Source: Isoptericola luteus (lineage in GTDB: Bacteria; Actinomycetota; Actinomycetes; Actinomycetales; Cellulomonadaceae). Taken from it: DNA of 64,000 bases. This document shows, in pieces, positions 36,795 to 51,620 of the stretch. Below the pieces are notes generated by a model that saw only the letters and a program-made list of their open reading frames with translations, was not told where the DNA came from and made no database searches. How positions within the stretch are numbered: the stretch's first letter is position 1; every line of letters starts with the position of its first letter. The stretch is taken from NCBI RefSeq assembly GCF_020297055.1, contig NZ_JAIXCQ010000011.1, forward strand, positions 1 to 64,000, read 5' to 3'. The position numbers and the translations under genes were made by a program.

Positions 36795-36956
36795 GACGTC
36801 CCATTCTCTCAACGTCCGCAAGGTGATTCGCGCGCTCAGGGGGAATGGCGCGCGACGGCGGGAGGCGAAGGGGTCTCGCCCGCGAAGGCGGACCTGCTGG
36901 GAGCGGTTCCATGATCGGGCCGCCGCAGTGGCCGACCACGACCGGAGGAGGCGCCG

Positions 36957-37137
36957 ATGAGGGGACGCGTCACGACGCTGCGGGACGTCGCCGACCGGGC
37001 GGGCGTCTCACCCACCACGGTGACGCGGCTCATCAACGCCCACGGCTTCGTCAGCCGGGACGCGCGAGCCGCGATCCGGCAGGCCATCGACGACCTGGGC
37101 TACGTGCCGTCGGCGCTACCGACTCCCCGGCCGGGCA
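36957..37137 (+). pseudogene. Truncated LacI-family regulator (HTH only)
   Basis: An ATG with GGAGGAG upstream starts a normal LacI head: TTLRDVADRAGVSPTTVTRLINAHG and the following helix to GYVPSALP (about 55 residues). Then the frame runs into unrelated Pro/Ser-rich sequence and the effector domain is missing. The break at about 37125-37140 marks a junction where island DNA replaced the remainder of the gene. Confidence 0.75.
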
Positions 37138-37347
37138 CCGCCGACTCCCGATCGTCGCAGTCATCGCGGCCGCCGCCATCGCGACCGCGCTGGCCTACCG
37201 CGGCATGGTCCTGTTCGGACTCGAGGTCGCCGGCATGGTGCCCGCCGAGGCATACATGCTCGCCGGGTTTCTCGAGATCGCCCTGATCGCCGTCGCGCTC
37301 ATGGCGCGCAGCGCGGCCCTCGACGGCCGCCCATACGAACTCCCAGA
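37138..37347 (+). pseudogene. Membrane-protein fragment interrupted by the transposon
   Basis: A different reading frame here encodes a hydrophobic stretch (LPIVAVIAAAAIATALAYRG and VPAEAYMLAGFLEIALIAVAL, then ARSAALDGRP), resembling the transmembrane region of plasmid-type DUF2637 proteins. The frame ends where the transposon begins. If the element and one copy of the 9-bp repeat are removed, it continues without a break at 48929 as E-P-D-S-G-V-P-Q-N-R... to a stop at 49002-49004, so this is one broken gene. The 5' end is lost at the lacI junction. Confidence 0.6.
37339..37347. repeat. Left 9-bp direct repeat (probable target-site duplication)
   Basis: actcccaga directly abuts the TGTG end of the transposon. 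The identical 9 bp follow the other end at 48920-48928. Confidence 0.7.
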
Positions 37348-37436
37348 TGTGACTTGCGCCGTTATATGGCGGGGTTCTATCGGGGTTGTGTGGCGGCCGG
37401 GTCAGCTGACGCCGATGACGAGGGTGCTCGCGGTGC
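37348..37436 (+). repeat. Left terminal inverted repeat, with inverted tniB 3' remnant
   Basis: This 89-bp sequence matches the right end in inverted orientation at roughly four positions in five, with one indel. Its inner part (minus strand, stop at 37404-37402) encodes the last residues of a TniB (STLVIGVS then stop), so the left end carries a tail of a second tniB gene beside the terminal repeat. Confidence 0.72.
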
Positions 37437-37484
37437 TACCGGGCCCGGCCCAGGTGCTTCACATGCGCAACCGGTCAACCCGCG

Positions 37485-38399
37485 TCAGGCGTTGTGAGGC
37501 TGGATGACGATCTTGCCGGTGGCGTGGCCGCTCTCGACCGCAGCAATGGCTTCGCCCGCGTCCTCCAGCGGGTAGAGGGCCGAGACGTTGGGGTCGACGA
37601 GGTTGTATTCGATGACGCCGGTGATCTTCTCCAGTGCCTCGGTGGTGCGCTTCAGGGGACTGCCGCCGAGCTCGGTGACGGTGTCGGGGTCGGCGGCGGA
37701 GATGATCCTGGCCGGGTCGGTGACGAGTCCGGCGACCTGACGCAGGGCATCGCCACCGACGAGGTCCAGGATCAGGTCTACCCCCTCGGGGGCGATCTGG
37801 CGCACCTGGTCGGCGACATTTGCACCGGAGGGGATGAACGTTGCTCCGGTGGCTTGAACGATCTCGCGCTTGGCCTGCGAGGCGATGCCGATGACGGTGA
37901 ACTGGTGGACCTTGCCGATCTGGGCGGCCATGAGTCCGACACCGCCGCCGGCCCCGAGGATGAGGAGCTGCTGGCCGGGCTCGAGCTCGATCTGGTGGGT
38001 GGCGTCGTAGGCGGTGGCCCCGGCGACGGGGATGGTGGCCGCGTCGGCGAAGGCGATCTCGTCCGGCTTGGCCACGGCATCGGTAGCGCGCACGAGGGTG
38101 TCCTCGGCGAAGGCGCCGTAGTCCGGGACCACATGGCCGAGGATCTCGTCGCCCACGGCGAAGCTTTCGACTCCCTCACCGAGGGCGGTGACGACACCGG
38201 AGACCTCCTGACCCATGGGGGCCGGCAACGGCTGGTCCCGACGGTAGCGGCCGGCGCGGATCTTGTAGTCGACGGGGTTGACACCGGCGGCGCGGACCCG
38301 GACGGCGAGCTCACCGGGGCCGGGCTGCGGCGCTGGACGGTCGATGAGTGCCTGGGTCTCGGGGCCGCCGAAGTCGGTGAATACGTACACCTTGGACAT
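37485..38399 (-). CDS. NADP-dependent quinone oxidoreductase-like (MDR family) enzyme
   Basis: This is a 304-residue medium-chain dehydrogenase/reductase without the catalytic or structural zinc cysteines, so it belongs to the quinone oxidoreductase branch. The nucleotide-binding loop is GAGGGVGLMAAQ, and the N-terminal signature GVNPVDYKIRAG is present. It would reduce a quinone or enone with NADPH. AGAAGGAGAAG precedes the ATG at 38399. It follows the cupin gene on the same strand with an 87-bp gap and is the last cargo gene before the transposon end. Confidence 0.82.
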   Translation of the reverse strand: MSKVYVFTDFGGPETQALIDRPAPQPGPGELAVRVRAAGVNPVDYKIRAGRYRRDQPLPAPMGQEVSGVVTALGEGVESFAVGDEILGHVVPDYGAFAEDTLVRATDAVAKPDEIAFADAATIPVAGATAYDATHQIELEPGQQLLILGAGGGVGLMAAQIGKVHQFTVIGIASQAKREIVQATGATFIPSGANVADQVRQIAPEGVDLILDLVGGDALRQVAGLVTDPARIISAADPDTVTELGGSPLKRTTEALEKITGVIEYNLVDPNVSALYPLEDAGEAIAAVESGHATGKIVIQPHNA

Positions 38400-38486
38400 G
38401 GGGTTCTTCTCCTTCTGCTGTGTGTTCGAAGCGGGTGAGACAGGTGCGGCCAACAGCCGCTGAGTTCGCTGCGCGGGGATGGCCGG

Positions 38487-38918
38487 TCAGGCGGCGGTGG
38501 GAGGTTCGTCCTGGCCAGCGGCCTCGGCGGCGTCGGCTTCTTCCTTGGTGGGGTAGGCGCCGTCGGCCGCGTGCTCGGGCGGGGAGTAGATGGTGTAGAG
38601 CACGAGCGGCTCGTCGCCGGTGTTGCGGAAGTTGTGCCGGGCGCCGGCGGGGACGGCGCACTGGTCACCGGCCTCGATCGGGTGGGTATGGCCGTTGAGG
38701 TCGGCCTGACCGGCCCCGCTGACGAAGGTCAGGATCTGGTCGGTGTGCTCGTGGACCTCCTCACCGATCTCGCCACCGGCGGAGATCGTCATGATGACGA
38801 TCTGGGCGTGCTGGCCGGTCCACAGCACCCGGCGGAAGTCGGGATTGTCCTGGGCGACCCGCGCGATGGTGAAGTGCTCGACGTTGCCCTCGATGGTGAA
38901 GTGTTCTTCGTTACTCAT
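38487..38918 (-). CDS. Cupin-domain protein
   Basis: This 143-residue single-cupin protein has metal-ligand histidines in EEVHEHTDQI and a second motif at PAGARHNFRNTG. Such small cupins are often sensors or dioxygenase-like enzymes. Upstream of the ATG at 38918 is AGGAGGAAT. It lies between the P-type ATPase and the MDR gene. The Ala/Glu-rich tail (EEADAAEAAGQDE) is not part of the fold. Confidence 0.78.
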   Translation of the reverse strand: MSNEEHFTIEGNVEHFTIARVAQDNPDFRRVLWTGQHAQIVIMTISAGGEIGEEVHEHTDQILTFVSGAGQADLNGHTHPIEAGDQCAVPAGARHNFRNTGDEPLVLYTIYSPPEHAADGAYPTKEEADAAEAAGQDEPPTAA

Positions 38919-39014
38919 GATTCCTCCTGTTGTGGTTGTGCCGGGCTTACCCGGCGGTGATACATCCGCGCCTGGCCGGGACGGTGGATGAGGCGTCCCG
39001 CCCGGGGTAGAGGG

Positions 39015-40952
39015 TCAGGACCGGACCGCAGCTGGGATCGGTGCGGCGGTGGCTGGCGCGGAAGGTGTCGCCGTGGTGCTGGTGGTGTCCTGGTGGCGGC
39101 GCAGCAAGCGCATGGCGTTGACGATCACGACCAGGACCGAGGCTTCGTGGACGAGCATCCCGATGGACATGGTCACTCCGCCGAGCAGCACTCCGGCCAG
39201 CAGCACGGCCACGGTGATCAGGGCGATGGTGATGTTCTGGCGCATGTTGTTCACGGTGCGCCGGGCCAGGCCGATCGCTTCGGGGAGCTTGAGCAGGTTG
39301 TCGCCCATGAGGGCGATGTCGGCGGTCTCTACGGCCACGGCCGAGCCGGCCGCACCCATGGCTACGCCGATATCGGCGGTGGCCAGGGCCGGGGCGTCGT
39401 TGACGCCGTCACCGACCATGGCCACGACGTGACCCTGACGCTGCAGGTCCGCGACTGCGTCGAGCTTGTCCTCGGGCAGCAGGCCGGCGCGGACCTCATC
39501 GACCCCGGTCGCCGCACCAACTGCCTTCGCCACCAGCGGGGCGTCACCGGTGAGCATGACCACCTTCTTCACCCCGGCGTCGTGCAGACGGGCGACCATC
39601 TGCGCCGCGTCGGGACGGACCTCATCAGCCACCGCGACCACACCAGCCACCGCATCCTCCACGGCCACGATCATCGCCGTCCTGCCCGCTGCGGCGAGCT
39701 CCTCAGCGGCCTGCCCGGCGCCAACAGTGTCGGCGATGCCGTACTGCTCCAGCAGCGCCACGTTGCCGATGAGGACCCGGCGCCCGCCGATGGTGGCAGT
39801 GATGCCCTTGCCAGGCACGGGCTCGGTGACCTCGGGCAGCCCCGACGTGGCCAGCCCCTCCGCGGCTGCTGCCTCCAGGATGGGTCGGGCGAGCGGGTGC
39901 TCGGAGCCGGCCTCGGCCCGGGCTGCCCAGGTCAGCACCTGGGCGCGATCCATGGCTGGGGCCAGGACGACGACGTCGGTCAGGTGCGGGCGGCCCTTGG
40001 TCAGGGTGCCGGTCTTGTCCACCGCGACGGCGGTGATCTTGCCGGAGGTCTCCAGGTACTCCCCACCCTTGATGAGGATGCCGTCCTTGGCGGCCCGGCC
40101 GATGCCGGCGACGATGGAGACCGGGATGGAGATGACCAGCGCGCCGGGGCAGCCGATGACCAGCAGGGTCAGCCCGAGCACGACGTCACCGGTGAGCAGG
40201 CCCACCACGAGGGCCAGGACCATGATGGCCGGGGTGTACCAGGCGGAGAACCGGTCCATGAACTGGGCGGTCTTGGCCTTGGCGTCCTGGGCGTCCTCCA
40301 CGCGGTGGATGATGCGGGCCAGCGTGGTGTCGGCGCCGATGCCGGTGGCGAGCACCTGGAGGAACCCACCCTTGGCGACGGTTCCGGCGAAGACGTGGTC
40401 GCCCTTGGACTTCTCCACGGGGATGGACTCCCCGGTGATGGAGGCCTCGTCCAGGGCGCCGGTGCCGGCCACGACCTCGCCGTCCACCGGGACCTTAGCG
40501 CCGTTCTTGACCAGGACGATCTCGCCCATGGCCACGCTCGCAGCGGGCACCTCCACCTGCACGCCGTCGCGCATGACCACGGCCACGTCTGGGGCCACGG
40601 CCACCAGCTCGGCCAGTGCCGAGCGGGTCTTGTTCAGCGTTGCGGACTCCAGGGCGTGCCCGATGGCGAAGAGGAAGGTCACCGCGGCGGCCTCCCAGTA
40701 CTCCCCGATGATCACCGCGCCGATCGCGGCCACCGAGACCAGCAGGTCGATGCCGATGACCCGGGCCATGAGCGCCCGGGCTGCCTTGGTCACGATCGGG
40801 GTACCCGCGACCACGGCGGCGGCCACCATGAAGGCGTTGCTCCACGCATCGGAACCGAGGCCGCGGGCCACGAAGAACGAGATGAGGATCAGCGCCCCGG
40901 AGACCACTGGGATCGCCCACCTGCCGTACCACCACTGCTGCAGCTTGTTCAT
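39015..40952 (-). CDS. P1B-type heavy-metal translocating ATPase with CPG motif
   Basis: This 645-residue P-type ATPase has the phosphorylation motif DKTGTLTKG, the P1B signature SEHPLA, the TGES loop (SITGESIPV) and the hinge VGDGVNDAPAL. The transmembrane metal motif reads IGCPGALV, so CPG replaces the more common CPC. No metal-binding domain precedes the first helix; separate small HMA-type proteins are encoded upstream (41767-42394, 43426). Metal identity (Zn/Cd/Co or other) is open. A Crp/Fnr-like box lies 80-95 bp upstream at 41032. Confidence 0.87.
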   Translation of the reverse strand: MNKLQQWWYGRWAIPVVSGALILISFFVARGLGSDAWSNAFMVAAAVVAGTPIVTKAARALMARVIGIDLLVSVAAIGAVIIGEYWEAAAVTFLFAIGHALESATLNKTRSALAELVAVAPDVAVVMRDGVQVEVPAASVAMGEIVLVKNGAKVPVDGEVVAGTGALDEASITGESIPVEKSKGDHVFAGTVAKGGFLQVLATGIGADTTLARIIHRVEDAQDAKAKTAQFMDRFSAWYTPAIMVLALVVGLLTGDVVLGLTLLVIGCPGALVISIPVSIVAGIGRAAKDGILIKGGEYLETSGKITAVAVDKTGTLTKGRPHLTDVVVLAPAMDRAQVLTWAARAEAGSEHPLARPILEAAAAEGLATSGLPEVTEPVPGKGITATIGGRRVLIGNVALLEQYGIADTVGAGQAAEELAAAGRTAMIVAVEDAVAGVVAVADEVRPDAAQMVARLHDAGVKKVVMLTGDAPLVAKAVGAATGVDEVRAGLLPEDKLDAVADLQRQGHVVAMVGDGVNDAPALATADIGVAMGAAGSAVAVETADIALMGDNLLKLPEAIGLARRTVNNMRQNITIALITVAVLLAGVLLGGVTMSIGMLVHEASVLVVIVNAMRLLRRHQDTTSTTATPSAPATAAPIPAAVRS

Positions 40953-41031
40953 AGCTGTTCGACCTTCCTGTAGCTGTCCAACCCCAGTTCGGGGTGCTGA
41001 CAACGACGTTATGAAGATCGGCACCGGGCAA

Positions 41032-41051
41032 CCATGACCGGCGTCAATCAA
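41032..41051 (-). promoter_or_regulatory. Crp/Fnr-like box upstream of the P1B ATPase
   Basis: On the minus strand this reads TTGATTGACGCCGGTCATGG, with the half-sites TTGA and TCA(T). The sequence of the box and of the following 30 bp (to gtgctgacaacgacgtta) is nearly the same as that upstream of the HMA-type gene at 42475. The spacing to a TAACGT-like -10 fits an activator overlapping the -35 region. The likely factor is the Crp/Fnr protein encoded at 42525. Confidence 0.55.
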
Positions 41052-41110
41052 CCGCACACCCATCCGTGCACCGCCGCCGGGGCTGCTCTAGCGTGCTGGC
41101 GCAATGAAGA

Positions 41111-41141
41111 GCGTCACCGCCGAGTTGATCGGCGGTGACGC
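41111..41141 (-). terminator. Strong hairpin downstream of the DoxX-like gene
   Basis: A perfect 13-bp stem (gcgtcaccgccga / tcggcggtgacgc) closes a 5-nt loop. It follows the DoxX-like stop (41268) in the direction of transcription and precedes the ATPase promoter. The 315-bp gap between the genes otherwise holds only the promoter region at 41000-41055. Confidence 0.65.
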
Positions 41142-41267
41142 TTAGCTGGTCCGGCTCAGAATGCGACCGGACGAGCCACGTAGCCTCGGCCCGCGGGCGC
41201 CCATGACCACACCCCAGTCCGCGGGGCCCGTGGGGCCGGGTGTCACGCGCATGGCGGGACGGCCCCG

Positions 41268-41687
41268 TCAGGTTCGCCTGGTTGCCAGTTCCTCCACCAT
41301 CAGGCCCAGACCGCTACCGAGCATGAAGACGTCCCGAGCGATCCCCATGCCAGCCGGCGCTGGACGGATTCCGTCATCACGGGTGAACCCTGGCGTCTTG
41401 AGGTACACGGCCATCAATGCGGCCGAGAATCCACTTAGGCCGGCCGCGGCCACCTGGGTGGGTACCATCGGGGCTAGTAGCGCCGTGCCCAGAGCGATCT
41501 CGAAGGTCGACAACGCCTTCCCGAAGCGGACCGGGTCCATCTTCTTCAAGAACGGGAACGCGTTGGCGGCCTGGTCCCGCAGCCCCGTTGCCCCGTCGAC
41601 GTCCAATGACCGCTTAGTGATTCCGGTGTTCAATATGAAGGCCCCGCTCGCCAGGCGCGGCGGGACATGGTGAAGCTTGACGCTCAT
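41268..41687 (-). CDS. DoxX-like membrane protein
   Basis: This 139-residue protein has two or three hydrophobic helices (LSTFEIALGTALLAPM and a C-terminal GMGIARDVFMLGSGLGLM) and the DoxX/SURF4-like 'MDPVRFGKALSTFE' lead. DoxX proteins are linked to redox and thiol stress in actinobacteria. It lies 79 bp downstream of the frameshifted HMA gene. The ATG at 41687 follows GGAGAG. Confidence 0.68.
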   Translation of the reverse strand: MSVKLHHVPPRLASGAFILNTGITKRSLDVDGATGLRDQAANAFPFLKKMDPVRFGKALSTFEIALGTALLAPMVPTQVAAAGLSGFSAALMAVYLKTPGFTRDDGIRPAPAGMGIARDVFMLGSGLGLMVEELATRRT

Positions 41688-41766
41688 AGCAATCTCTCCT
41701 GAGTTCTTGGGACGTGGGTCTACCAGCGGTTCACACGTGAGAATGCAGCGGGCAGGCTTCCGCTGA

Positions 41767-42128
41767 TCATTGACGGGCCCGGCGGCCCGGTGCGGCCCTC
41801 ATGGGTGGCGGGATGACGCCCGGGCAGTGCGCTCGCGCTTGGTCTGGGCACCGGTCGACGTCCCTGGTCGCCCTAGTGGAGGCGGGTCCTAGGTCCTCCG
41901 AGATAACGCTTGCGGTAACGCCGGCACCGCCGACGGTCACCAGGATGTCCTCGACGTCCAAGCGTCGGGGGTCGTAGTCGACGTCAACCCGGTGCGAGTG
42001 CAGATCGATGTGCACGGCCTGCACCCCGGAAGACGCTTCAGGTGCCGGTTGATGTCGGTGGCGCACGAGGGGCAGAAAAACTCGCCCAGGCGCAGCTGCA
42101 GGTGCGCCGCCTGTGCCATGACGCTCAC
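41767..42128 (-). pseudogene. Heavy-metal-associated (HMA) domain gene with single-base frameshift
   Basis: The first part encodes LRLGEFFCPSCATDINRHLKRLP with the C-x-x-C metal site. The fold then continues in another frame as GVQAVHIDLHSHRVDVDYDP...LVTVGGAGVTA. The shift maps to a run of four C at 42024-42027 on the plus strand, where five would keep the frame. It is either a real one-base deletion or a base-call error. With the base restored this is a two-part HMA protein with a 45-residue tail. Confidence 0.68.
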
Positions 42129-42154
42129 TGTCCTTCTCCTTGGCGCGGCGGGCG

Positions 42155-42394
42155 TCAGAACGCGGCAGGCTTGGCGACGTACCCGGCCTTGCCCACAGCG
42201 GCGATCAGGTCCTCGACGCTGGCCTTGGCCGGGTCGTGGTCGACCTCGATGCGTGCCGAGGCGAACTGGACCTTCACGGCGCTGACGCCGTCCAGGCGTC
42301 CGACACGCTTCTCGATCTTCGCCACGCAGGAGGGGCAGGAGAAGCCTTCGGCGCGCAGGGTCGTGTGGGTGGTGGTGGGAGCGGTGGTGCTCAT
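42155..42394 (-). CDS. HMA-domain metallochaperone (CopZ-like)
   Basis: This 79-residue protein has the site GFSCPSCVAKIEKRV and the rest of the ferredoxin-like HMA fold (GVSAVKVQFASARIEVDHDP). It would carry a soft metal ion in the cytoplasm and could deliver it to the P1B ATPase, which lacks its own HMA domain. The ATG at 42394 is preceded by AGGAA. A Crp/Fnr-like box lies about 80 bp upstream. Confidence 0.82.
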   Translation of the reverse strand: MSTTAPTTTHTTLRAEGFSCPSCVAKIEKRVGRLDGVSAVKVQFASARIEVDHDPAKASVEDLIAAVGKAGYVAKPAAF

Positions 42395-42474
42395 GGTGTG
42401 TTCCTTCCTTCTCTGACGAGGTCTCACCCTTCTTGGGTGCTGACTACGACGTTACGAGCGGGCCAGGAACCGAA

Positions 42475-42494
42475 CCATGACGTGCATCAATCAA
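42475..42494 (-). promoter_or_regulatory. Crp/Fnr-like box upstream of the HMA chaperone gene
   Basis: On the minus strand: GGTTGATTGATGCACGTCAT with TTGAT and a GTCAT half. It matches the box at 41032-41051 at most positions and sits the same distance from its gene. The next 50 bp include a gtgctgactacgacgtta stretch shared with the other promoter. Confidence 0.55.
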
Positions 42495-42524
42495 CCGCAG
42501 CAGACGTGAGAGAGTCCTCGCCCC

Positions 42525-43346
42525 TCAGGCACTGGCGGCCACGGTGGCGAGCAGACGGTCGCCGTCCAGGATGGCGGTCCATCTGCGGCCGGAGTCGATG
42601 ATGCCGTCCTTGCGGAGCTGGCTCATTACCCGGGAGACGGACTCCGGTGTCGAACCGGTCATGCCGGCCAGGTCAGTGCGAGACAGCGGCAACTGGATCA
42701 ATGTGGCACCGGAGGAGCTGTCCTGGCCGAACTTCTCGGCTAGGCGCAACAGCGTGGTCGCTACCCGCTGGGCGACGGTGGCGGTGGATTGCGCGGTGAC
42801 GTCCGCACGCGCTTGCGCTAGCAGCGCGGTGACGTCGTCCACCACCCGTAGGGCGACCTCGGGGTGTTGCGTCATGACATCGCGGAAAGCGCGTGTGTCG
42901 ATGCGTAACGCGCAGGTGGTGGTCAGGGCGCGAACGGTTTCGGGGTAGGTGGGCTGGCCCAGGGTGTGCATGCCTCCGAAGAGGTCGCCAGGGGCCAGGA
43001 GATCGACGACGACGTCCTGGCCGTTCGGGGTCGGGCGGGAGACCTTGGCGCGCCCGGCTGCCATGACGTAGAGATGTTCGGCCACGTCGCCGGCTGTGTA
43101 GAGCGGGTCGTCCTCAGCCCAGGACAGCGAGACCATGCGGTGGTCGATACCGACAAGATCCTCGTGGGACAGACCGGCGAAGAGCGGCACCTGGCCGAGA
43201 ACCTTCATGCGTACCGGCAATGGACAGTGATGGGGCTGGGCGCAGGTTGAGCGCAGCGGGACTCGTCGTCGGCCAGGTGCGCCGGTAGCCGAATTGACCG
43301 GGGAGGATGCACCGTGCGATGCGGCGGAGCCGGGTTCGCTGCTCAC
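42525..43346 (-). CDS. Crp/Fnr-family transcriptional regulator
   Basis: This 273-residue regulator has a cyclic-nucleotide-binding-type beta-roll (about 50-165, with GDLFGGMHTLG) and a C-terminal HTH_Crp (about 205-265: PLSRTDLAGMTGSTPESVSRVMSQLRKDG, split here). No Fnr-type cysteine cluster is evident at the start. The GTG at 43346 has TCAGGAGG. Two matching boxes upstream of neighbouring metal genes make it the likely local regulator. Confidence 0.83.
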   Translation of the reverse strand: MSSEPGSAASHGASSPVNSATGAPGRRRVPLRSTCAQPHHCPLPVRMKVLGQVPLFAGLSHEDLVGIDHRMVSLSWAEDDPLYTAGDVAEHLYVMAAGRAKVSRPTPNGQDVVVDLLAPGDLFGGMHTLGQPTYPETVRALTTTCALRIDTRAFRDVMTQHPEVALRVVDDVTALLAQARADVTAQSTATVAQRVATTLLRLAEKFGQDSSSGATLIQLPLSRTDLAGMTGSTPESVSRVMSQLRKDGIIDSGRRWTAILDGDRLLATVAASA

Positions 43347-43425
43347 GATTGCCTCCTGAAAGTGATGCTAGATGCGCCGAGACGAATAAGCACGTGCTTC
43401 GTCTCATTATTGGTAGCCGTAATGG

Positions 43426-43647
43426 TCAGGCGAGCGTGTATTCGCCCGCCTCCTGCACGGCTGCCTCGATGGCCGAGCGGTTCAGCTCGACGTCGTCCTT
43501 GTGCTTGAGGATGATGCGCGCTTCGCCGTCGGGAATGATCTCGGTGGCGACGGCACCGATACCTGCCACGAGATAGAGCCTGTCCTTGATGGCCCGCGCA
43601 TCCTCGGCTGTGGTCATGCCGGCGACGGTGTAGATAGTGCTGATCAT
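43426..43647 (-). CDS. HMA-fold protein lacking the metal-binding cysteines
   Basis: This 73-residue protein has the HMA fold pattern (MISTIYTVAGMTTAEDARAIKDRLYLVAGIGAVATEI..., split) but T-T-A-E in place of C-x-x-C. It cannot bind metal through the usual pair and may be a partner or inhibitor of the HMA chaperones. It starts 12 bp after the b561-oxidase stop and is in the same operon. Confidence 0.65.
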   Translation of the reverse strand: MISTIYTVAGMTTAEDARAIKDRLYLVAGIGAVATEIIPDGEARIILKHKDDVELNRSAIEAAVQEAGEYTLA

Positions 43648-43659
43648 GCCCTGCTCCTG

Positions 43660-45189
43660 TCAGATCCGGCCGTTGAACGCCTGCATCGCGGCGTCCTCAC
43701 GGGTGCCGCCACGACCCTCACCGTACGCGGCGTAGTCGGTGATCCACTCGATGGACTTGATCCACTTGACCATCTTGTACCCATGGTTCGACTCCACCCG
43801 CAGCCGCAGCGGCGCGCCCAGATGCACCTCCAACGGGTGCCCGTTGCGCTCGTACGCCAGGATCGTGTCGTCCTCGGCGACCGTGTCGAGGTCCAGCACC
43901 GCGTAGAACGGTTCCCGCGGCCGGTGGTCCCACATCTCCTGGGCCAGGCCGTGGGAGGTGATCATCACGTAGTTGGCACCCTCCGGGGGAGGTCCGAGGA
44001 CCTCGAGGAGGTCACGGAGCCGGACGCCGGCCCATTTGGAGGTGGCCGACCAGCCCTGCATGCAGGTGTGGACCGCGATGTACTCGGTCTTCGGGAGCTG
44101 ACGCAAGTCCCCCAGGCTCAGCTGCAGCGTCTTACCGCTCAGCTCACCACCGAGCTCGAGGCGCCAGTCACGGAAGCCGCTGTCCCGGTGGGCGAGCCAC
44201 TCCGTGGACTCGTCCTTGGTCGGCGGGAGCCCGTTGGTCCAGTGGAACTCCGAGATGTCCTTCTCGGTGTAAGTACTCTGGCGTCCCATGCGGGGCTTCA
44301 TCCAGTTCAGGGTGACCTTGCGGATCGGCTCAGTCAGCGCCACGAGCACGCGCTGGGAGCGCGGGCGGTCGGCCAGCGTGAGGTAGCTCAGAGCGATCCA
44401 CAAGCCGATAACGACGACGATCGTGGCGATCGCGATGGTGAAGGCCTGCGCGTATCGGGCGGTGTCGGTGACACCGAAGACCATGTGCGGCAGGTTGTAC
44501 TCGGGGTGGACCAAGAACACCAGACCGATGTGCATCACGATGAAAATGCTCATCAGGACCATGCCGATGAAGTGCAGCGAACGAGCGCCCTGGTGCCCAC
44601 CCCACAGCTTCAGGTACCAGGGGAAGCGCGAACGCACGGCCGGGGACATCGCGATACCTGTCAGGATCAGCAACGGCGCCAAGATGAAGACGACGCCGGT
44701 GTAGGTGAGCATCTGCAGCGCGTCGTAGGGCTGGAAATGCTCGATCGAGGGCACGCCGAAGCCGAGGTAGATCCGCATGGATTCCCACGCCTCGGGGAAC
44801 ACATCCCACGAGTTCGGCACGATCCGCCGCCACAGGCCGGTGCCGAACAGCAGGACGACGTAAAGCAGGCCGTTGATCAACCACAGCGTCACTCCCAGTC
44901 CGTGCCAGTGCCGCCCCAGGCCGATGTTCTTCTTCCCCGGCAAGGTCAGCAGCGGGCTGGCGGATCGCTCGTCCATGAGGGAGGTGTAGACGCCCTCCTC
45001 CTTCGGCAGCTCCCGGCGGGTGAACTTGATCCACTCAGTGCCCGGCTTGGAGTCATTGCGCCACCACAGGCGGGGCAGCGAGGCGAGAATTTCCCACCCG
45101 CTGCGCAGCACAATCCCCATTAGGACAAAGTTGAGCAGGTGTGTAGCCCGCAGCCAGAGCGGGAAATCCGGGTCCAAGAATGCCTCCAT
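43660..45189 (-). CDS. Cytochrome b561-like / sulfite oxidase-type molybdopterin fusion
   Basis: This 509-residue protein combines an N-terminal membrane part (about 1-285, five or six helices, His residues in ATHLL, RHWHG and MHIGL suited to haem) and a C-terminal molybdopterin domain of the sulfite oxidase/YedY type. C376 in HTCMQGWS is the molybdenum ligand, and GVRLRDLLE and GAPLRLRV blocks follow. The two parts would pass electrons from the quinone pool to a periplasmic substrate. The YedY/MsrP relationship suggests repair of oxidised methionine, but this is inference. It is the most upstream cargo gene. Confidence 0.83.
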   Translation of the reverse strand: MEAFLDPDFPLWLRATHLLNFVLMGIVLRSGWEILASLPRLWWRNDSKPGTEWIKFTRRELPKEEGVYTSLMDERSASPLLTLPGKKNIGLGRHWHGLGVTLWLINGLLYVVLLFGTGLWRRIVPNSWDVFPEAWESMRIYLGFGVPSIEHFQPYDALQMLTYTGVVFILAPLLILTGIAMSPAVRSRFPWYLKLWGGHQGARSLHFIGMVLMSIFIVMHIGLVFLVHPEYNLPHMVFGVTDTARYAQAFTIAIATIVVVIGLWIALSYLTLADRPRSQRVLVALTEPIRKVTLNWMKPRMGRQSTYTEKDISEFHWTNGLPPTKDESTEWLAHRDSGFRDWRLELGGELSGKTLQLSLGDLRQLPKTEYIAVHTCMQGWSATSKWAGVRLRDLLEVLGPPPEGANYVMITSHGLAQEMWDHRPREPFYAVLDLDTVAEDDTILAYERNGHPLEVHLGAPLRLRVESNHGYKMVKWIKSIEWITDYAAYGEGRGGTREDAAMQAFNGRI

Positions 45190-46008
45190 AGATCGTCGCC
45201 GGCTGTAGCCGCGCCTGTCCTCGCCACACTAAGCCGCCCACCTATCCCGGGCATCTACGGGCTGCTCGATGCCGGTCCGCTGCCATCGGTCGGATCCCGT
45301 GTTGGCCTTCCATCCCGGGCATCTACGGGCTGCTCGATGCCGGTCCGCTGCCATCGGTCGGATCCCGTGCTGGCCTTCCACGGCAGGCTGCGGTGGGAGC
45401 TTTGGTGCGGGAGCCCAGACGTAGATGCTCGGAGAGCCGCCCTGTGCCCCGCGCTCGCATCGGAATCGGACAGAGGGAGTGGAACTCAACCCAGCGGCAC
45501 ACCCTGTGCGGCCATGGGAAAGGTTCGGGGTCGATGGGCTGGCCGTCGATGTGGACGGCGTACTGCAGGTGGTAGCAGCAGGCGAAGTTCCCGGCGTCGC
45601 CAACCAGGGCGATGACTAGCCGCAGGCGGCCCCCGAAGTCGGTGCCGTAGTGAAACATGCCGCCCAATAACTTGCGGGGCCCGAAACGTGAGGTGATCGG
45701 TGCATCCAGCGGCGCGGGCCGTCACCGAAGCGCTGGTGCCCCAACACCCCAACGCTCGGGCAGCCGTCGCTGCCTGCATGGCCAGAGTCCTCAGCGAGGT
45801 CGACGGCAGGCCCCTGACGTTCCACGGGCCATCAGCGATCCGCACTTCTCTTGGCAGCCACGACGCACCACTCGCAGTCTGCTGTACGTAATCGAACGAT
45901 TCCGCTACAGCGGCGACGAGGGCTCGGCGCCCTCTTCAGGATGCTTGACGGTTCGCGGTTCTCGGCCCACGCCATTTGTAACGAAACTCAGTGCCGGATT
46001 CTATGGCT
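45190..46008. other. Gene-poor stretch between cargo and transposition module
   Basis: No convincing gene is seen. A 114-residue open frame on the minus strand (45323-45667) has some protein-like sequence (LRLVIALVGDAGNFACCYHL and HIDGQPIDPEPFPWPHR) but no recognisable fold, and it overlaps a 68-bp tandem duplication. It may be a decayed gene. Upstream of 46009 no promoter is obvious. Confidence 0.4.
45244..45379. repeat. Two tandem 68-bp direct repeats
   Basis: 45244-45311 and 45312-45379 each begin atcccgggcatctacgggct and contain ctgctcgatgccggtccgct. They are almost identical, differing at one base (gttgg/gctgg). This indicates a recent duplication. Confidence 0.8.
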
Positions 46009-46036
46009 CGATACTTCCCGTGCTGAACGAGTATCG
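46009..46036. promoter_or_regulatory. Dyad upstream of the resolvase gene (possible res subsite)
   Basis: CGATACT and AGTATCG form inverted arms with 14 bp between. The dyad ends 14 bp before the resolvase ATG. Serine resolvases bind such subsites just upstream of their own gene, so this may be part of res. Only one dyad is clear to me. Confidence 0.45.
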
Positions 46037-46050
46037 CTACAGTCAGCGCC

Positions 46051-46650
46051 ATGGGGCATCTGCTGGGGTATGCGCGTGTGTCGACGACCGATCAGGACGC
46101 TGCGCTGCAGATCGATGCGCTGACTGCGGCGGGGTGTTATCGGGTCTTCGTCGATACGATCTCTGGCTCCCTGGATCACCGGCCCGAGCTGGCGAAGTTG
46201 ATGGACCAGTTGCGCCCGGGGGACACGCTGGTGGTGTGGCGGCTGGACCGGTTGGGTCGCTCGATCAGGCATCTGATCGACCAGCTGCAGGTCCTGTCCG
46301 AGCAGGGCGTGGGGTTCCGCTCCTTGCAGGAGACGATCGACACGACCTCCTCGGGCGGGCGGCTGGTGTTCCACGTCTTCGCCGCGCTGGCCGAGTTCGA
46401 ACGTGACCTGATCCGTGAGCGCACCCACGCAGGACTGGCCGCCGCCCGGGCCCGTGGCCGCAAAGGCGGGCGACCGCCCGCCCTGTCGCCGGACCAGGTC
46501 AAGGCGGCCCGTCGGATGTATGAGCAGAATGAGATGACGGTGGCGCAGATCGGTGCGGTCTTGGGCGTCAGCCGGGCCACCATCTACCGCGTGCTCAACC
46601 GCCAAAGTGTCCCAGTGGTCGAACCACGACAGTCGAGAAGCGCCGTGTAG
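46051..46650 (+). CDS. tniR: Serine resolvase (TniR-type recombinase)
   Basis: This 199-residue serine recombinase has catalytic Ser11 in GYARVSTTDQD, the arginine-rich motif VVWRLDRLGRS, and E/R block EFERDLIRERT. A C-terminal HTH (MTVAQIGAVLGVSRATIYRVLN) follows. It resolves cointegrates by acting on two res sites. It lies 3 bp before the transposase gene and reads in the same direction. Confidence 0.9.
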   Translation: MGHLLGYARVSTTDQDAALQIDALTAAGCYRVFVDTISGSLDHRPELAKLMDQLRPGDTLVVWRLDRLGRSIRHLIDQLQVLSEQGVGFRSLQETIDTTSSGGRLVFHVFAALAEFERDLIRERTHAGLAAARARGRKGGRPPALSPDQVKAARRMYEQNEMTVAQIGAVLGVSRATIYRVLNRQSVPVVEPRQSRSAV

Positions 46651-46653
46651 GTC

Positions 46654-48051
46654 ATGGACGCGGCCGGGCGCTGGCAGATCCTCAGGCTTCACGTCGAGGA
46701 CCAGATCCCGCTCGCCGCCCTGGCCCGGGACACCGGGATCGGGTTGCGCACGCTGGAGCGGTGGCACGCCCGCTACCGCACCGAGGGATACGCAAGCCTC
46801 GATAGGCGGCAGCGCGCTGATGTCGGCAGCCGCCGCCTGCCCGCTGAGCTCGTGTCGTTGGTCGAAGGGCTGGCGTTGAGGAAGCCTCGGCCGGCGATCA
46901 TCACCATCCACCGCAAGGTCAGCGCCATCTGCGAGGAGCAGGGATGGCCCGTGCCCTCCTATGGCGTCGTGCGCGCGATCATCGCCGACCTCGATCCGGG
47001 CATGGTCACCCTGGCCCTGGAAGGGCCGGCGTCCTACCGGGACAAGTACGAGATCGCGCTGCGCCGGCAGGCCGAGCGGCCGAACGCGATGTGGCAGGCC
47101 GATCACACCCTGCTCGATGTCCTCGTGGTGGGCACCGACGGCAAGCCCGCCCGGCCGTGGCTGACGACGATCATCGATGACTGCTCGCGCGCTATCTGCG
47201 GGTACACCGTGTTCCTCGGTGCGCCCTCGGCGATGAACACCGCGCTGGCGCTGCGTCAGGCGATCTGGCACAAGACCGACCTCTCCTGGCCGATGTGCGG
47301 CCTGCCCGAGGTGCTCTACGTCGATCACGGCAGCGACTTCATCAGCAACCAACTCACCGGCACGGCCGTGGACTTGCATATCCGACTCATCCACTCTGCC
47401 GTCGCGCGTCCTCAGGGGCGCGGCAAGGTGGAGAGGTTCTTCGGGACCGTGAACACCGAGCTGCTGGCTGGTCTGCCTGGGTACATCGCCGAGGGACACC
47501 ACTGGCCGACGCCGAAGCTGTCCCTGGCTGAGCTCGACGCTGCGATGGAGGAGTTCGTAATCACCTACAACGACCAAACTCACAGCGAGCTCGGCACCTC
47601 CCCGCGCGCTGCCTGGATCGCCGATGGCTGGCTACCGCGCATGCCGGAGAGCCTGGAGGACCTCGACGGGCTCCTGCTCACCGTCGCCCAGACCAGGGTC
47701 GTGCGCCGCGATGGCATCCACTTCCAGGGCCTGCGCTACATCTCCCCGACCCTGGCCGGTTACGTCGGCCGGTCGGTCGTGATCCGCTACGACCCCAGGG
47801 ACATCACCGAGATCCGCGTGTTCGACCACGAGGACTTCATCTGTAAGGCCATCAACCAGGATCACCACGACCAGAAGGTCAGCCTCAAGGAGGTCCAGGC
47901 CGCCCGCAACGCCCGGCGCCGGGCGCTGCGTCAGGGCATCAACGAGCGGATCGCCGTCGTGGCCACGCAGACCGACCCTGCACCAGCGACCGAGGCGCCG
48001 CCGCCGGCGCCTCGGCGGAAGTTGCAGGTCTATAGAGAGGACCTGAGGTGA
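46654..48051 (+). CDS. tniA: D-D-E transposase (TniA/Mu-type)
   Basis: This 465-residue transposase has an N-terminal HTH (RWQILRLHVEDQIPLAALARD) followed by a retroviral-integrase-fold core with D150 (WQADHT), D224 (YVDHGSDF) and E260 (KVERFFGT), a D-x35-E spacing. A Mu-C-like beta domain (about 330-395) follows. The order resolvase-transposase-ATPase supports the TniA assignment. The end overlaps the ATPase gene by GTGA. Confidence 0.88.
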   Translation: MDAAGRWQILRLHVEDQIPLAALARDTGIGLRTLERWHARYRTEGYASLDRRQRADVGSRRLPAELVSLVEGLALRKPRPAIITIHRKVSAICEEQGWPVPSYGVVRAIIADLDPGMVTLALEGPASYRDKYEIALRRQAERPNAMWQADHTLLDVLVVGTDGKPARPWLTTIIDDCSRAICGYTVFLGAPSAMNTALALRQAIWHKTDLSWPMCGLPEVLYVDHGSDFISNQLTGTAVDLHIRLIHSAVARPQGRGKVERFFGTVNTELLAGLPGYIAEGHHWPTPKLSLAELDAAMEEFVITYNDQTHSELGTSPRAAWIADGWLPRMPESLEDLDGLLLTVAQTRVVRRDGIHFQGLRYISPTLAGYVGRSVVIRYDPRDITEIRVFDHEDFICKAINQDHHDQKVSLKEVQAARNARRRALRQGINERIAVVATQTDPAPATEAPPPAPRRKLQVYREDLR

Positions 48052-48866
48052 GTCAGCGCTTCATCGTGACCAAAGAACACCGCCGCTTCACCGAGTTCGC
48101 CGACGCCGTGCGGCGCGGGCACACCATCGGCCTGTGCTTCGGACCAGCCGGCGTGGGAAAGACGCTCTCCGCGCGCCGCTACGCCCGCTGGGACAAGGCC
48201 CACGACCTGCTGACCTACTGGGGACCGCGCTCCGACAGTGACGCGAAGATCTACGCCGCGCTGGCCAAGAGCCGTACCGTGCTCTACACCCCCAGCGTGC
48301 TGACCACGCCACGGGCCCTGAAGGAGGAGCTCGACCAGGTCATCTCCCGCACCAATATCTGCATCGAGCAGCACCTCGCGCCGGCCGGACAGGTCACGCC
48401 AGAGACGCGCGGGTGGCGCCACAGCAGGAACTACGTCGAGCTGATCATCGTCGATGAGTCCGAACGCCTACGCCCCACCGCACTGGAACTGCTGCGCGAT
48501 CGCTACGACCGCGACAACATCGCCCTCATCCTGATCGGCATGCCCGGCCTGGAGAAGCAGTTCAGCCACTACCCCCAGTTCTACAGCCGCGTCGGCTTCG
48601 CCCACCAGTACCGGCCCCTGGGCAAGGACGAACTGCTCTTCGTCCTTCAACGGCACTGGCGCGCCCTCACCAAGACCCTCGACCCAGAGGACTTCACCGA
48701 CGCCCAAGCCATCGCCGCCATCGCCCGCATCACCCGAGGGAACTTCCGACTCCTGGAACGACTCTTCCCCCAGATCGAGCGCGTCCTGAAGATCAACGAA
48801 CTCGACACCATCACCAACGACGTCATCGAAGCCGCCGCCAGCACCCTTGTCATCGGCGTCAGTTGA
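48048..48866 (+). CDS. tniB: AAA ATPase transposition protein (TniB-type)
   Basis: This 272-residue ATPase has Walker A GPAGVGKT (32-39) and Walker B LIIVDESER (about 134-142). TniB partners a TniA transposase in target selection, as MuB and IstB do. The start GTG overlaps tniA. Its last residues ASTLVIGVS are repeated at the left end of the element. Confidence 0.87.
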   Translation: MSQRFIVTKEHRRFTEFADAVRRGHTIGLCFGPAGVGKTLSARRYARWDKAHDLLTYWGPRSDSDAKIYAALAKSRTVLYTPSVLTTPRALKEELDQVISRTNICIEQHLAPAGQVTPETRGWRHSRNYVELIIVDESERLRPTALELLRDRYDRDNIALILIGMPGLEKQFSHYPQFYSRVGFAHQYRPLGKDELLFVLQRHWRALTKTLDPEDFTDAQAIAAIARITRGNFRLLERLFPQIERVLKINELDTITNDVIEAAASTLVIGVS

Positions 48867-48919
48867 CAGGCCGCCACATAGCACCTACAGAACCCCGCCA
48901 TTTATCGGCGCAAGCCACA
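48831..48919 (-). repeat. Right terminal inverted repeat
   Basis: On the minus strand this begins TGTGGCTTGCGCCGATAAAT and pairs with the left end, 37348-37436. It overlaps the last codons of tniB (stop at 48864-48866). Confidence 0.75.
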
Positions 48920-48960
48920 ACTCCCAGAACCCGATTCTGGCGTGCCTCAGAATCGGTCAG
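48920..48960. repeat. Dyad repeat copy 1 (disrupted by the transposon)
   Basis: The sequence 'actcccagaacccgattct ... cctcagaatcggtcag' contains CCGATTCTG and CAGAATCGG arms and a second small dyad CCAGAA/TTCTGG. The first 9 bp (48920-48928) form the right flanking direct repeat of the transposon, and the left part of the motif (cgaactcccaga) is at 37336-37347, so the transposon landed in this copy. The 175 bp after it, before the sigJ stop, show no other gene. Confidence 0.75.
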
Positions 48961-49004
48961 TTCTGAAGCGACGACCTGACTTGTGGGAACGGGCCAAGAC
49001 GTAG
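48929..49004 (+). pseudogene. 3' fragment of the interrupted membrane-protein gene
   Basis: Read in frame with the left fragment across the removed transposon, this gives EPDSGVPQNRSVLKRR and then PDLWERAKT before TAG (49002-49004). It has no start of its own. Confidence 0.5.
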
Positions 49005-49135
49005 CAGTCGATGCCCTCAGGGTGACTCTGCTATGCCCGGGCCGAACCAAGGCGCCAGAGACGTGCCTCCTGTAGCCCTGGTCACGAATGCGCGGGATGG
49101 CGATCGAACCTGGACGGATCCTGGCGGCGAACAGG

Positions 49136-50014
49136 TCATGCCAGGTCCGGAAGCTCCATCCGGCCTAGCGTCGCCCTGTCGGCGACTGCGGTGATCGCCG
49201 TCATACGCCGGTGCTCCACGGTGCAGGTCATCAGGCCCACGGGACGACCGGTGGGAGCGAAGGCGAGGACCCCGGGTCGCCCGTCCACCACGACCTGGCG
49301 AGCGGTGAACCCCAGCTCGCTCCCCCGCACGACGGCGCGGACGAGTTCTGCACGGCCTCGTCTCACCGTCACGCCCCGCGGGCTGCGCACCTCCCAGACC
49401 AGGTCCGGGTGGAGGACCTCGAGCAGGGCCTCGAAGTCGCCGTCGCGGGCGGCGGCCAGGAACGCGTCGACCACAAGTCGTTGCCGGCGGTGACTACCAG
49501 TGGGGCGTGCGGCGTCACGGACCTTGCGGCGAGCACGGCTCGCTGCCATCTTTGCGGCGTCGACCGACTTGTCGATGATCACGCCGATCTCGGCGAACGG
49601 GACACCGAACACGTCGTGCAGCACGAAGGCGAGCCGTTCATCTGGCCGGAGCGAGCCCAGCACAGTGAGCAGAGCCAGGCCGAGTGCCTCGCTGTCGATC
49701 GCGTGGCTCTCCGGGTCCCCGTCGGTGGAGACGACGTCGGCCGTGACGACCGGGTCGCGGAACTGCGCTTCGAAGGACGTCTCGCCCTTTGCCGCCCGGG
49801 AGCGCAGGACGTCAATGCTCAGCCGCCCCACCACGGTGGTCAGCCATGCGGCGAGGTTCTCGATCGTTGCGGGGTCCTGACGGGCGAGACGCACCCACGC
49901 CTCCTGCACGACGTCCTCCGCGGAGCTCGCGCTCCCGAGCACCCGGGTCGCGATCGCCAGCAGACGCCCGCGCTCTGCCTCGAAGTTCTCTGCCAGGTCG
50001 GTCTGGGAGCTCAT
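49136..50014 (-). CDS. sigJ: SigJ-like ECF sigma factor with SnoaL-type C-terminal extension
   Basis: This 292-residue sigma factor has region 2 at about 10-75 (RVLGSASSAEDVVQEAWVRL), region 4 at about 125-185 (LRPDERLAFVLHDVFGVPFAEIG) and a SnoaL-like extension (VVDAFLAAARDGDFEALLEVLHPD and following). Such extensions replace an anti-sigma factor as the regulatory module. The ATG at 50014 has GAGGAGAGG. It is divergent from a DoxX-like gene, its probable target. Confidence 0.85.
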   Translation of the reverse strand: MSSQTDLAENFEAERGRLLAIATRVLGSASSAEDVVQEAWVRLARQDPATIENLAAWLTTVVGRLSIDVLRSRAAKGETSFEAQFRDPVVTADVVSTDGDPESHAIDSEALGLALLTVLGSLRPDERLAFVLHDVFGVPFAEIGVIIDKSVDAAKMAASRARRKVRDAARPTGSHRRQRLVVDAFLAAARDGDFEALLEVLHPDLVWEVRSPRGVTVRRGRAELVRAVVRGSELGFTARQVVVDGRPGVLAFAPTGRPVGLMTCTVEHRRMTAITAVADRATLGRMELPDLA

Positions 50015-50035
50015 CGTTACCTCTCCTCGGTCTGT

Positions 50036-50055
50036 CCCGTCATCACGATGACGGG
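50036..50055. promoter_or_regulatory. Palindrome between sigJ and the DoxX-like gene
   Basis: CCCGTCATC-ac-GATGACGGG is a perfect dyad with a 2-bp centre, in the 77-bp space between the divergent starts. It may be an operator shared by the two promoters. Confidence 0.5.
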
Positions 50056-50091
50056 CCCGAGCGGGCCGACGTAACGACGAAGGAGAAGTTC

Positions 50092-50472
50092 GTGAACCTC
50101 GCCCTGTGGATCCTCGCCGGCGCACTCGCCATCGCCTACACCGCGGGCGGCACCAGCCTGCTGCTGATGCCCAAGGAGCGGTACCGCGCACTCGGGGCCA
50201 GCCAGCACTGGGTCGACGACTTCGAGGACCGGCACCTCAAGGTCATCGGCGTCGTCAAGATCATCGGGAGCCTCGGCCTCATCCTCCCGGCAGCGCTCGG
50301 CGTCGCACCGCTCCTGACTCCTCTCGCGGCCAGCGGGCTCGCACTCTTCATGGCCGGCGCCGCAACCACGCGCTTCCGTCGCAGCGAATGGAAACTGATG
50401 CTCATTGACGTGTTCTACCTCAGCCTCTTCCTCGTGCTGGCCTGGGGGCGGTTCGACCTCCAGCCGCTCTAG
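50092..50472 (+). CDS. DoxX-family membrane protein
   Basis: This 126-residue protein has four hydrophobic helices (VNLALWILAGALAIAY, VIGVVKIIGSLGLILPAALG, LLTPLAASGLALFM and the C-terminal VFYLSLFLVLAW). The pattern fits DoxX-like/YphA proteins commonly controlled by SnoaL-type sigma factors. The GTG at 50092 has AAGGAGAAG upstream. It differs in sequence from the DoxX-like protein in the transposon. Confidence 0.8.
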   Translation: MNLALWILAGALAIAYTAGGTSLLLMPKERYRALGASQHWVDDFEDRHLKVIGVVKIIGSLGLILPAALGVAPLLTPLAASGLALFMAGAATTRFRRSEWKLMLIDVFYLSLFLVLAWGRFDLQPL

Positions 50473-50566
50473 GTCTAACCGGCCACGACTTCGATGCCAG
50501 TTCGTGTTGTCGAAGTGAGGGTCTCCGGTTCGCGCAAGTGCCCGAACAGGAAGGAGCCCCCCTGAA

Positions 50567-50615
50567 GTTCCGAAAACTCCAGAACCCGATTCTGGCGCGC
50601 CTCAGAATCGGTCAG
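50567..50615. repeat. Dyad repeat copy 2
   Basis: gttccgaaaactccagaacc..., with CCGATTCTG and CAGAATCGG arms separated by gcgcgcct. It falls in the 330-bp space between the DoxX-like and purN-like genes, which otherwise shows no gene. Confidence 0.75.
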
Positions 50616-50802
50616 TCTTGGAGCGTTGACAGTGATTGTTGGGGCTCGACAGAACCGCCACTACTCCAGCGCGGCAGTCGTCACGTCGTGTGGATGAAAC
50701 GAGGTCGACCCGGCCCTGCGCACCCACTATCGACCGCCCACCGGCCGCAGCGCACTCGTCACCGCGGTCTCACGCCGCAAGGGCGTGACGTACCGTGTCG
50801 CC

Positions 50803-51420
50803 ATGTCGAGCGCCAGCGCCCCCACGCATCTCGCGATCTTCGCCTCGGGTGAGGGGAGCACGGCCGCGCGGATCATCGACGCGGCGGGCCGAGGGCTGGA
50901 CGCCGCGGTCCGTCTGGTCGTCAGCAACAACAGCGGCTCAGGTGCGCTCGAGCACGCGCGCTCCCGAGGCGTGCCGACGCGCCACCTTAGCGGCCGGACC
51001 CACTCCGACCCCGAGGCGCTCGCCGCTGCAATCGCGGGGGCGCTCCACGAGGCCGGCGTCGAGCTCGTGGTGCTCGCTGGCTACATGAAGAAGCTCGGCC
51101 GCCGCGTCCTGGCTGGTTGGGACGGGCGCATCGTCAACACCCACCCGGCCTTGCTGCCCGCCTACGGCGGCGTCGGGATGTATGGGGACCGCGTCCACTC
51201 GGCCGTCCTTGCCGACGGGGCCACCATTACCGGCGCCTCGGTCCACGTCGTCACCGCCGAGTACGACGAGGGTCCAGTTCTCGCGCAGTGCCCCGTGCCG
51301 GTCGAGCCCGACGACGACGTCGCGAGCCTCCGCGCGCGCGTCCAGGCGGCCGAGAAGGAGCTCCTCATCTCGTGGCTCACCGCGTCCTGCGGCGTCCGCG
51401 AGACCGCCCTGCCCACCTGA
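50803..51420 (+). CDS. Formyltransferase of the PurN (GAR transformylase) family
   Basis: This 205-residue protein has the PurN fold: the N-terminal nucleotide loop LAIFASGEGST, the catalytic N112-x-H114 in VNTHPALLPAYGG and D155 in AEYDEGPVL. It would transfer a formyl group from 10-formyl-THF. It lies in the accessory region next to a sigma-factor cassette rather than in a purine operon, so it could be a second copy or act on another amine. GTG at 50785 is an alternative start. Confidence 0.8.
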   Translation: MSSASAPTHLAIFASGEGSTAARIIDAAGRGLDAAVRLVVSNNSGSGALEHARSRGVPTRHLSGRTHSDPEALAAAIAGALHEAGVELVVLAGYMKKLGRRVLAGWDGRIVNTHPALLPAYGGVGMYGDRVHSAVLADGATITGASVHVVTAEYDEGPVLAQCPVPVEPDDDVASLRARVQAAEKELLISWLTASCGVRETALPT

Positions 51421-51620
51421 GCCGCAGGCCGTCCCGCAGATCCGTCCTGCTCACCGCGTCCTCCGCCCTGCTCACCGCGCCCCCGTGGGCCGGATGCGAG
51501 TGAGCCGGCAACGATGCTCACCCAGCGAACCAGGTGACCGTGCGACATCGAACCGTCATCCGGTCCGGGCTGGTGCGGCTTCCGCTGCCTCCGTGTGGTC
51601 AGTCGGCCACGGCTCGTCAG

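Follow-up and report, generated by a model that had tools for sequence, protein, structure and literature searches.

As described in the literature, Tn552 carries a serine resolvase gene together with orf480 and orf271 (PMC10135026, PMC3276174), has terminal inverted repeats of about 120 bp, finds hot spots for insertion in the palindromes of res sites, and is generally flanked by 6-bp repeats, with 10-bp repeats in pMW2-like and pIB485-like plasmids (PMC3276174). For the Tn5053 family, a 5-bp repeat, res sites as targets and a preferred orientation are described (PMC7765201), and a published tree of TnsB proteins has four clades (PMC8649781). The element named Tn552-II has the genes tnpABC (PMC12486829), and because this set looks unlike that of Tn552 we have not used it as a precedent here. 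We analyzed a 64-kb stretch of Isoptericola luteus (contig NZ_JAIXCQ010000011.1, positions 1 to 64,000; the window is this whole stretch) and conclude with high confidence that positions 37348-48919 hold an apparently intact Tn552-type transposon, with the transposition proposed below, a variable stagger, a res preference and cargo that travels with the ends.

The element is 11,572 bp long and combines inverted ends, the 9-bp sequence ACTCCCAGA directly outside both of them, and open tniR, tniA and tniB genes; it is complete and possibly functional. The three genes stand in the order R-A-B at the right end, with the cargo genes reading the opposite way. All on the plus strand, tniR (46051-46650) encodes a serine resolvase of 199 amino acids (aa; Pfam Resolvase, 154 bits, and HTH_7), tniA (46654-48051) a TnsB-like DDE transposase of 465 aa (Pfam Mu-transpos_C and rve), and tniB (48048-48866), which overlaps the tniA stop, an AAA ATPase of 272 aa (Pfam AAA_22, 71.7 bits). 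The end sequences are TGTGACTTGCGCCGTTATATGGCGGGGTTCT (37348) and TGTGGCTTGCGCCGATAAATGGCGGGGTTCT (48919, other strand). Their inverted similarity is 84% over 89 columns (37345-37433 versus 48835-48922), about 86 of them within the element, and can also be resolved as two blocks of 54 and 33 nt. The left terminal inverted repeat covers 37348-37433 (plus strand) and the right one 48835-48919 (minus strand), with a TGGCGG motif recurring within each end. On its inner side, the right repeat extends into the 3' end of tniB, and the inner part of the left end (37401-37433) matches this gene end in inverted orientation. The copies of ACTCCCAGA occupy 37339-37347 and 48920-48928, and the sequence occurs three times on one strand of the window: at both junctions and at 51629, as the first bases of a target-repeat copy that is not interrupted. 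The G+C content of the element is 67.1%, compared with 73.5% in the 20 kb to its left. An initial annotation of this DNA had proposed a complete tniR-tniA-tniB transposon with cargo, with these end positions, related inverted ends and a 9-bp direct repeat on both outer sides, and our analysis confirmed all of this.

The window belongs to contig 3 of a 3.97-Mb assembly (G000), and contig 1 carries the same 11,572 bp at 100% identity with identical flanks. We rejected the second copy as an independent insertion. Because the flanks are identical and about 52.5 kb are shared (contig 1:1-52581 and contig 3:27445-79964 being almost identical), a single insertion is present twice, and the two copies come from duplication or assembly overlap. 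The main difference between the 52.5-kb blocks is an additional hairpin-like stretch, about 60 bp long, in contig 1.

The insertion split a 40-bp repeat at its left edge (48920-48961, plus strand). This target repeat contains an inner palindrome, CCGATTCTG-N8-CAGAATCGG, at 48931-48956, and two further copies on the plus strand are uninterrupted (50579-50616 and 51629-51667); the last of these begins with ACTCCCAGA and is a natural analogue of the empty site. Small gene modules are flanked by the three direct repeats, whose palindrome is recombinase-like, with arms of 9 bp and a spacer of 8 bp. The modules include a sigma factor/SnoaL gene and a DoxX gene (Pfam) and an open reading frame (ORF) that by eye resembles a formyltransferase. 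Such repeats could be a cassette array or a dif-like module array, and insertion sequences that target pdif sites have reportedly been described (PMC10132070). The repeat was found in no other genome among 396 of the order (with up to three mismatches), and the exact pattern was absent from viral contigs.

The DNA at this site was rearranged, either before the insertion or at about the same time. On the left, a truncated lacI matches that of G010, the nearest syntenic relative, at 84% identity as far as about 37115, and similarity to G010 resumes at 52361; the syntenic locus in G010 has a full-length lacI-like ORF and an ORF resembling, by eye, a dehydrogenase. Just before 52361, at 52200-52340, lies a remnant resembling, by eye, the C-terminal region of an integrase-type transposase. 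For the DNA left of the element, 44 of 58 genomes (our own included) have a match somewhere, the stronger matches being the lacI part or a gene fragment at other places. This fragment (193 bp, 37145-37337) resembles the 5' portion of a different chromosomal gene found in the genus, 75-83% identical in genomes of the genus and in two of the family, lies in a different frame from the preceding truncated lacI, and runs into the repeat. It bears on the earlier suggestion that excision restores a continuous reading frame. When the flanks are joined with one copy of the 9-bp sequence the frame does stay open (...GRPYELPEPDSGVPQNRSVLKRRPDLWERAKT, then a stop), but no interrupted gene emerges, and the frame is most likely a chance opening across the repeat.

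The break in homology with G010 and the bracketing of small modules by recombinase-like repeats would also be expected if the transposon were a passenger in a larger mobile unit, namely an island of about 37.1-52.4 kb that integrates site-specifically and uses the 40-bp repeats for attachment. We consider such an island unlikely, given that tniR is the only recombinase besides the transposase in the 16 ORFs scanned with Pfam (a scan that ended before the ORFs from about 50.5 kb on) and that the left edge shows no repeat copy other than the split one. An island and the transposon itself are not rival readings, and both may hold. A deletion next to the left end could instead have left ACTCCCAGA as a stump, since this sequence starts a family of repeats in the flank, including the copy at 51629, and 12 of the 33 insertions compared below have no flanking repeat. 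Such a deletion, however, would have had to end precisely at the corresponding base of the repeat. The DNA of the left flank changes immediately ahead of the repeat, which fits a single copy that was split, and such duplications are frequent among related elements; we regard a stump as very improbable. The 9-bp repeat is very probably a real target duplication.

The length of a target duplication is usually assumed to be determined by the enzyme for DDE transposases. To compare the window copy with its relatives we used 80 loci (79 relatives and the window copy) and paired ends by inverted similarity alone, leaving the flanks out of the pairing. Right ends were missing in range at 17 loci and left ends within the fetched DNA at 30, so that 33 insertions had both. 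An exact flanking repeat of at least 5 bp was present in 21 of the 33 (window included), with lengths of 5 bp (one insertion), 6 bp (four), 7 bp (seven), 8 bp (three), 9 bp (five, including the window) and 10 bp (one); mismatched flank pairings reached at least 5 bp in 4 of 1056 cases. With chance extension assumed at 0.30 per base (range tried 0.25 to 0.35), a fixed duplication of 6 bp gives P = 1.5e-5 (6.5e-7 to 1.9e-4) for at least 6 of 21 reaching 9 bp. For a fixed 7 bp the value is P = 0.009 (0.0014 to 0.036), and this length is inadequate because it disallows the five shorter repeats. L104 (9 bp, inverted match 23/40) was left out as just below the required 24, and L071, with a near-repeat shifted by three bases, was counted as having none.

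Mixed lengths also occur among nearly identical elements. Groups with TniA at least 97% identical show 6, 6, 7, 8, 8 and 8 bp, 7, 7 and 9 bp, and 5, 6 and 9 bp. An element of about 4.17 kb is flanked by 6 bp in L096, 6 bp in L124, 9 bp in L129 and 10 bp in L118, the latter three being 98.7-98.8% identical to L096, so the length varies while the transposase stays nearly the same. In L118 and L129 the tniA frame is broken; these two copies are absent from the 97% groups and entered by DNA identity only. This Tn552-type element was seen in records of Brachybacterium, Microcella, Demequina, Nocardioides and Cellulomonas (seven copies, 98.7-99.1% identical to L096), a distribution that points to recent wide transfer.

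The initial annotation had taken the 9 bp to suggest a distinct branch or a fortuitous extension, the former being read here as a branch whose transposase makes a fixed 9-bp duplication. Repeats of 9 bp are indeed found at L076, L079, L111 and L129, at L192 in a more distant set, and on plasmids at L167 and L168. For the two plasmid insertions, the only accepted duplications among 10 plasmid loci, the ranking of ends used the repeat itself, and they were therefore kept outside the 33; another plasmid locus, L165 (7 bp), was left out because its repeat belongs to another end pair. The near TniA relatives L068 (Mycolicibacterium) and L069 (Nostocoides) nevertheless have 7 bp and L067 none, and because other lengths occur within near-identical elements, copies lacking the 9-bp repeat among them, which the annotation itself had named as a refuting case, a fixed 9-bp branch is refuted and retains almost no credibility. 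The range of 5-10 bp and the P value for a fixed 6 bp likewise do not support a fortuitous extension. A 9-bp repeat does not set a separate branch apart and is ordinary for the relatives. We think it probable that in the actinobacterial Tn552-type branch one transposase acts with a truly variable stagger of about 5-10 bp, in which case the length would be decided at each insertion rather than fixed by the enzyme, perhaps through the geometry of a target that is palindromic or bound by a resolvase. The Tn552 values of 6 bp, and of 10 bp in certain plasmids, fit a variable length (PMC3276174). Judged by title or the start of the abstract, no paper in our literature search describes variable duplication length in the Tn552-type group.

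Resident resolvase genes lie beside part of the insertion sites. We searched the 33 insertions plus L167 and L168, some of them with short flanks, with six resolvases as queries, and 10 of these 35 have, 63-119 bp outside one end, the start of a serine-resolvase gene directed away from that end. Such positions make up 0.34% of the bases outside the elements, the ten places included, which corresponds to a binomial P of about 3e-14 with both ends allowed. The right end is nearest to the resolvase gene in five cases and the left end in the other five. In the more distant set, L190 and L195 lie about 100 bp from a resolvase gene. It is thus statistically shown that res sites of resident resolvases are favoured targets of the relatives. 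Palindromes as a general target signal were rejected by comparison with control stretches; the palindrome score at the window insertion, 9, is at the 99% quantile of the 344 controls.

The cargo can be followed in a few close relatives. An 11.5-kb sister in G095 carries the same cargo; its identity to the window element is 96.9% on the cargo side (7969 columns) and 87.7% on the tni side (3616 columns). Its flanks are different: a resolvase gene lies about 100 bp away from the right end, and GGACAGC forms a near-repeat that is off by one base. The same cargo is present at 96% in G319, and G371 has the left 4.8 kb at 91%. The left 653 bp of the element match 20 of 396 genomes (own included), at full length in four (our own, G095, G319 and G371), by the outer 86 bp only in two, and by the dehydrogenase gene without the end in fourteen. 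Cargo without these ends in related genomes had been named as evidence that would count against a transposon, and the only such cases were the homologues of the first cargo gene in these 14 of 396 genomes, which are 66-81% identical and have no left end, so that the transposon reading is untouched. Conversely, L067, L068, L069, L071 and L076 have TniA proteins 87-94% identical to that of the window element and share no cargo block of at least 250 bp with it.

A block upstream of tniR is conserved in the window copy and six relatives with differing cargo, L073 retaining its inner part only. Because it persists across different cargo, this block (approximately 45880-46050, plus strand) is a likely res site and a likely place of exchange. 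In the two sisters with the full cargo, identity drops at element position 7965, from the higher values of the cargo to the lower ones of the tni side, and this point lies inside a tandem repeat of 68 bp (two copies, 45244-45379). From these comparisons, cargo appears to have been exchanged against other cargo next to res.

To place the element among known transposons we compared its transposase with described proteins. TniA is 45% identical over 435 aa to a Tn552-like TniA from Mammaliicoccus (L171) and 30% identical to a Tn402-type TniA from an IncP plasmid that has tniA-tniB-tniQ-tniC. L142 was too short and was left out of the tree, which comprised 36 transposases; in it the window TniA forms a group with the Oerskovia and Mycolicibacterium proteins (94% identical; support 100/98), and this group sits inside a large actinobacterial set. 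TniQ (PF06527) had no match in the genome at E up to 1, in a search whose sensitivity is not proven by its control, since the model matched 9 of 14 control genomes, none above its cut-off. Rfam gave no match at the gathering score across 36800-52400. Given the 45% versus 30% identity, the lack of a TniQ match and a gene set equal to that of Tn552, membership in the Tn5053/Tn402 class, as the initial annotation had it, is not supported, and by these sequence criteria the element is nearer to Tn552. A Tn5053/Tn402-family transposon with a 5-bp duplication extended to 9 by chance, to which the similar gene set (tniA, tniB, resolvase) and the distant relationship of TniA would lend themselves, is hardly tenable when a 5-bp repeat occurs in just 1 of 21 insertions with a repeat and a fixed 5 bp at 0.30 extension yields P of about 1e-8 for at least 6 of 21 at 9 bp or more.

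Several results weigh against a Tn552-type transposon with variable stagger and a res preference. No exact repeat flanks the 12 insertions mentioned above; the 4170-bp copies L082, L088 and L093 show none at 98.9-99.1% identity to L096 (6 bp), and the same is true of L067 (Oerskovia), which shares an identical TniA with L068 (7 bp). The second, more distant set has a repeat in 1 of 9 end pairs (L192); it comprised 19 loci, 10 of them without an end pair, and one of the nine pairs, L206, is not credible. No true empty site was found, G010 being arranged differently. There is no resolvase gene within 2.5 kb of the window insertion, and the insertions taken together show no enrichment of palindromes (P = 0.24; 35 insertions, 344 controls). 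In the tree the Tn552-like protein joins the Chloroflexota rows, with weak support, and these rows, at 46-50%, are at least as near to the window TniA as the Tn552-like protein is. In a wider sampling of the class, 5 of 393 genomes gave a match at E up to 1e-100, our own included. L181, with a near-repeat shifted by one base, lies outside the 33.

The transposon is proposed to move as follows. TniA would bind the repeated sites in both ends and cut and join the DNA, and TniB would activate it at the target. No TnsA partner turned up among the scanned ORFs of the element, so copying into the target as a cointegrate is the most likely route, by analogy with Tn552 and Tn5053. TniR would then resolve the cointegrate at the putative res site just upstream of its gene, where the stretch is conserved. 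The target would be cut without a fixed stagger, giving the observed duplications of 5-10 bp (9 bp here). Insertion would favour res sites of resident resolvases, the window copy having landed elsewhere, in a part of the chromosome that has been rearranged, at the edge of the 40-bp palindromic repeat. The P-type ATPase, the heavy-metal-associated (HMA) protein, the CRP/FNR regulator, the molybdopterin-cytochrome oxidoreductase, the cupin and the dehydrogenase travel with the ends.

The cargo genes are all on the minus strand. The outermost encodes a zinc-binding dehydrogenase or quinone oxidoreductase-like protein (37485-38453; Pfam ADH_N and ADH_zinc_N on 37485-38429, with the NCBIfam PIG3 family below its cut-off) and is followed by a cupin protein gene (38487-38918; Pfam Cupin_2). 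A heavy-metal P-type ATPase, assigned to the Cd/Zn group by model (39015-41063; NCBIfam TIGR01525 and TIGR01512 above cut-off), shows GCPGALVIS in its membrane motif, that is, CPG; metal ATPases usually have CPC there. Next come a small protein with no Pfam match at E 0.001 (41268-41687), a protein with a weak HMA domain (41767-42066; 20.3 bits, cut-off 24.8), a metal chaperone-like HMA domain protein (42155-42427; 55.5 bits), a CRP/FNR-type regulator (42525-43346; Pfam cNMP_binding and HTH_Crp_2) and a cytochrome b561 domain fused to a molybdopterin oxidoreductase domain (43660-45189; Pfam Ni_hydr_CYTB and Oxidored_molyb).

A defined, apparently intact actinobacterial Tn552-type element is now available, with relatives that are shown to favour resolvase sites and cargo that appears to be swapped near res. 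Res-site hunting and the 6- and 10-bp repeats are already known for Tn552 (PMC3276174). What the natural insertions suggest is a variable stagger under nearly one transposase. The determinants of the stagger in TnsB/TnsC-type systems thereby become directly testable, and as a caution, duplication length is unsuited to classifying such elements.

The element can be set beside three known systems. It resembles the Tn7-like elements with TnsB and TnsC, including type V-K CRISPR-associated transposons (CAST), in that TniA aligns over 425 residues (E 3e-44) to the TnsB of 7svw, presumably a type V-K protein, and keeps, by eye, the D, D and E positions that we take to be catalytic; unlike them it has no detected TniQ, and no guide system was noticed, Rfam being the one search made for it. 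With Tn5053/Tn402 (TniA, TniB, TniQ, TniR) it shares a related DDE transposase and ATPase, a serine resolvase and, among its relatives, the hunting of res sites, but TniA is only 30% identical, no TniQ was found and the repeat is 9 bp instead of 5. Tn5053 also has one preferred orientation, whereas the ten resolvase-adjacent relatives divide evenly between the two ends. It differs from staphylococcal Tn552 (p480, p271, Bin resolvase) in its actinobacterial host, its metal and redox cargo in place of blaZ, a TniA of 465 aa, an inverted similarity of about 86 bp instead of about 120 bp, and a position away from any recognisable res site. The two nonetheless have in common the three-gene transposition set without TniQ, with a serine resolvase gene and a p271-like AAA ATPase adjoining a p480-like transposase, long terminal inverted repeats with repeated inner sites, a short target duplication, and, among the relatives of the window element, insertion beside resident serine resolvases.

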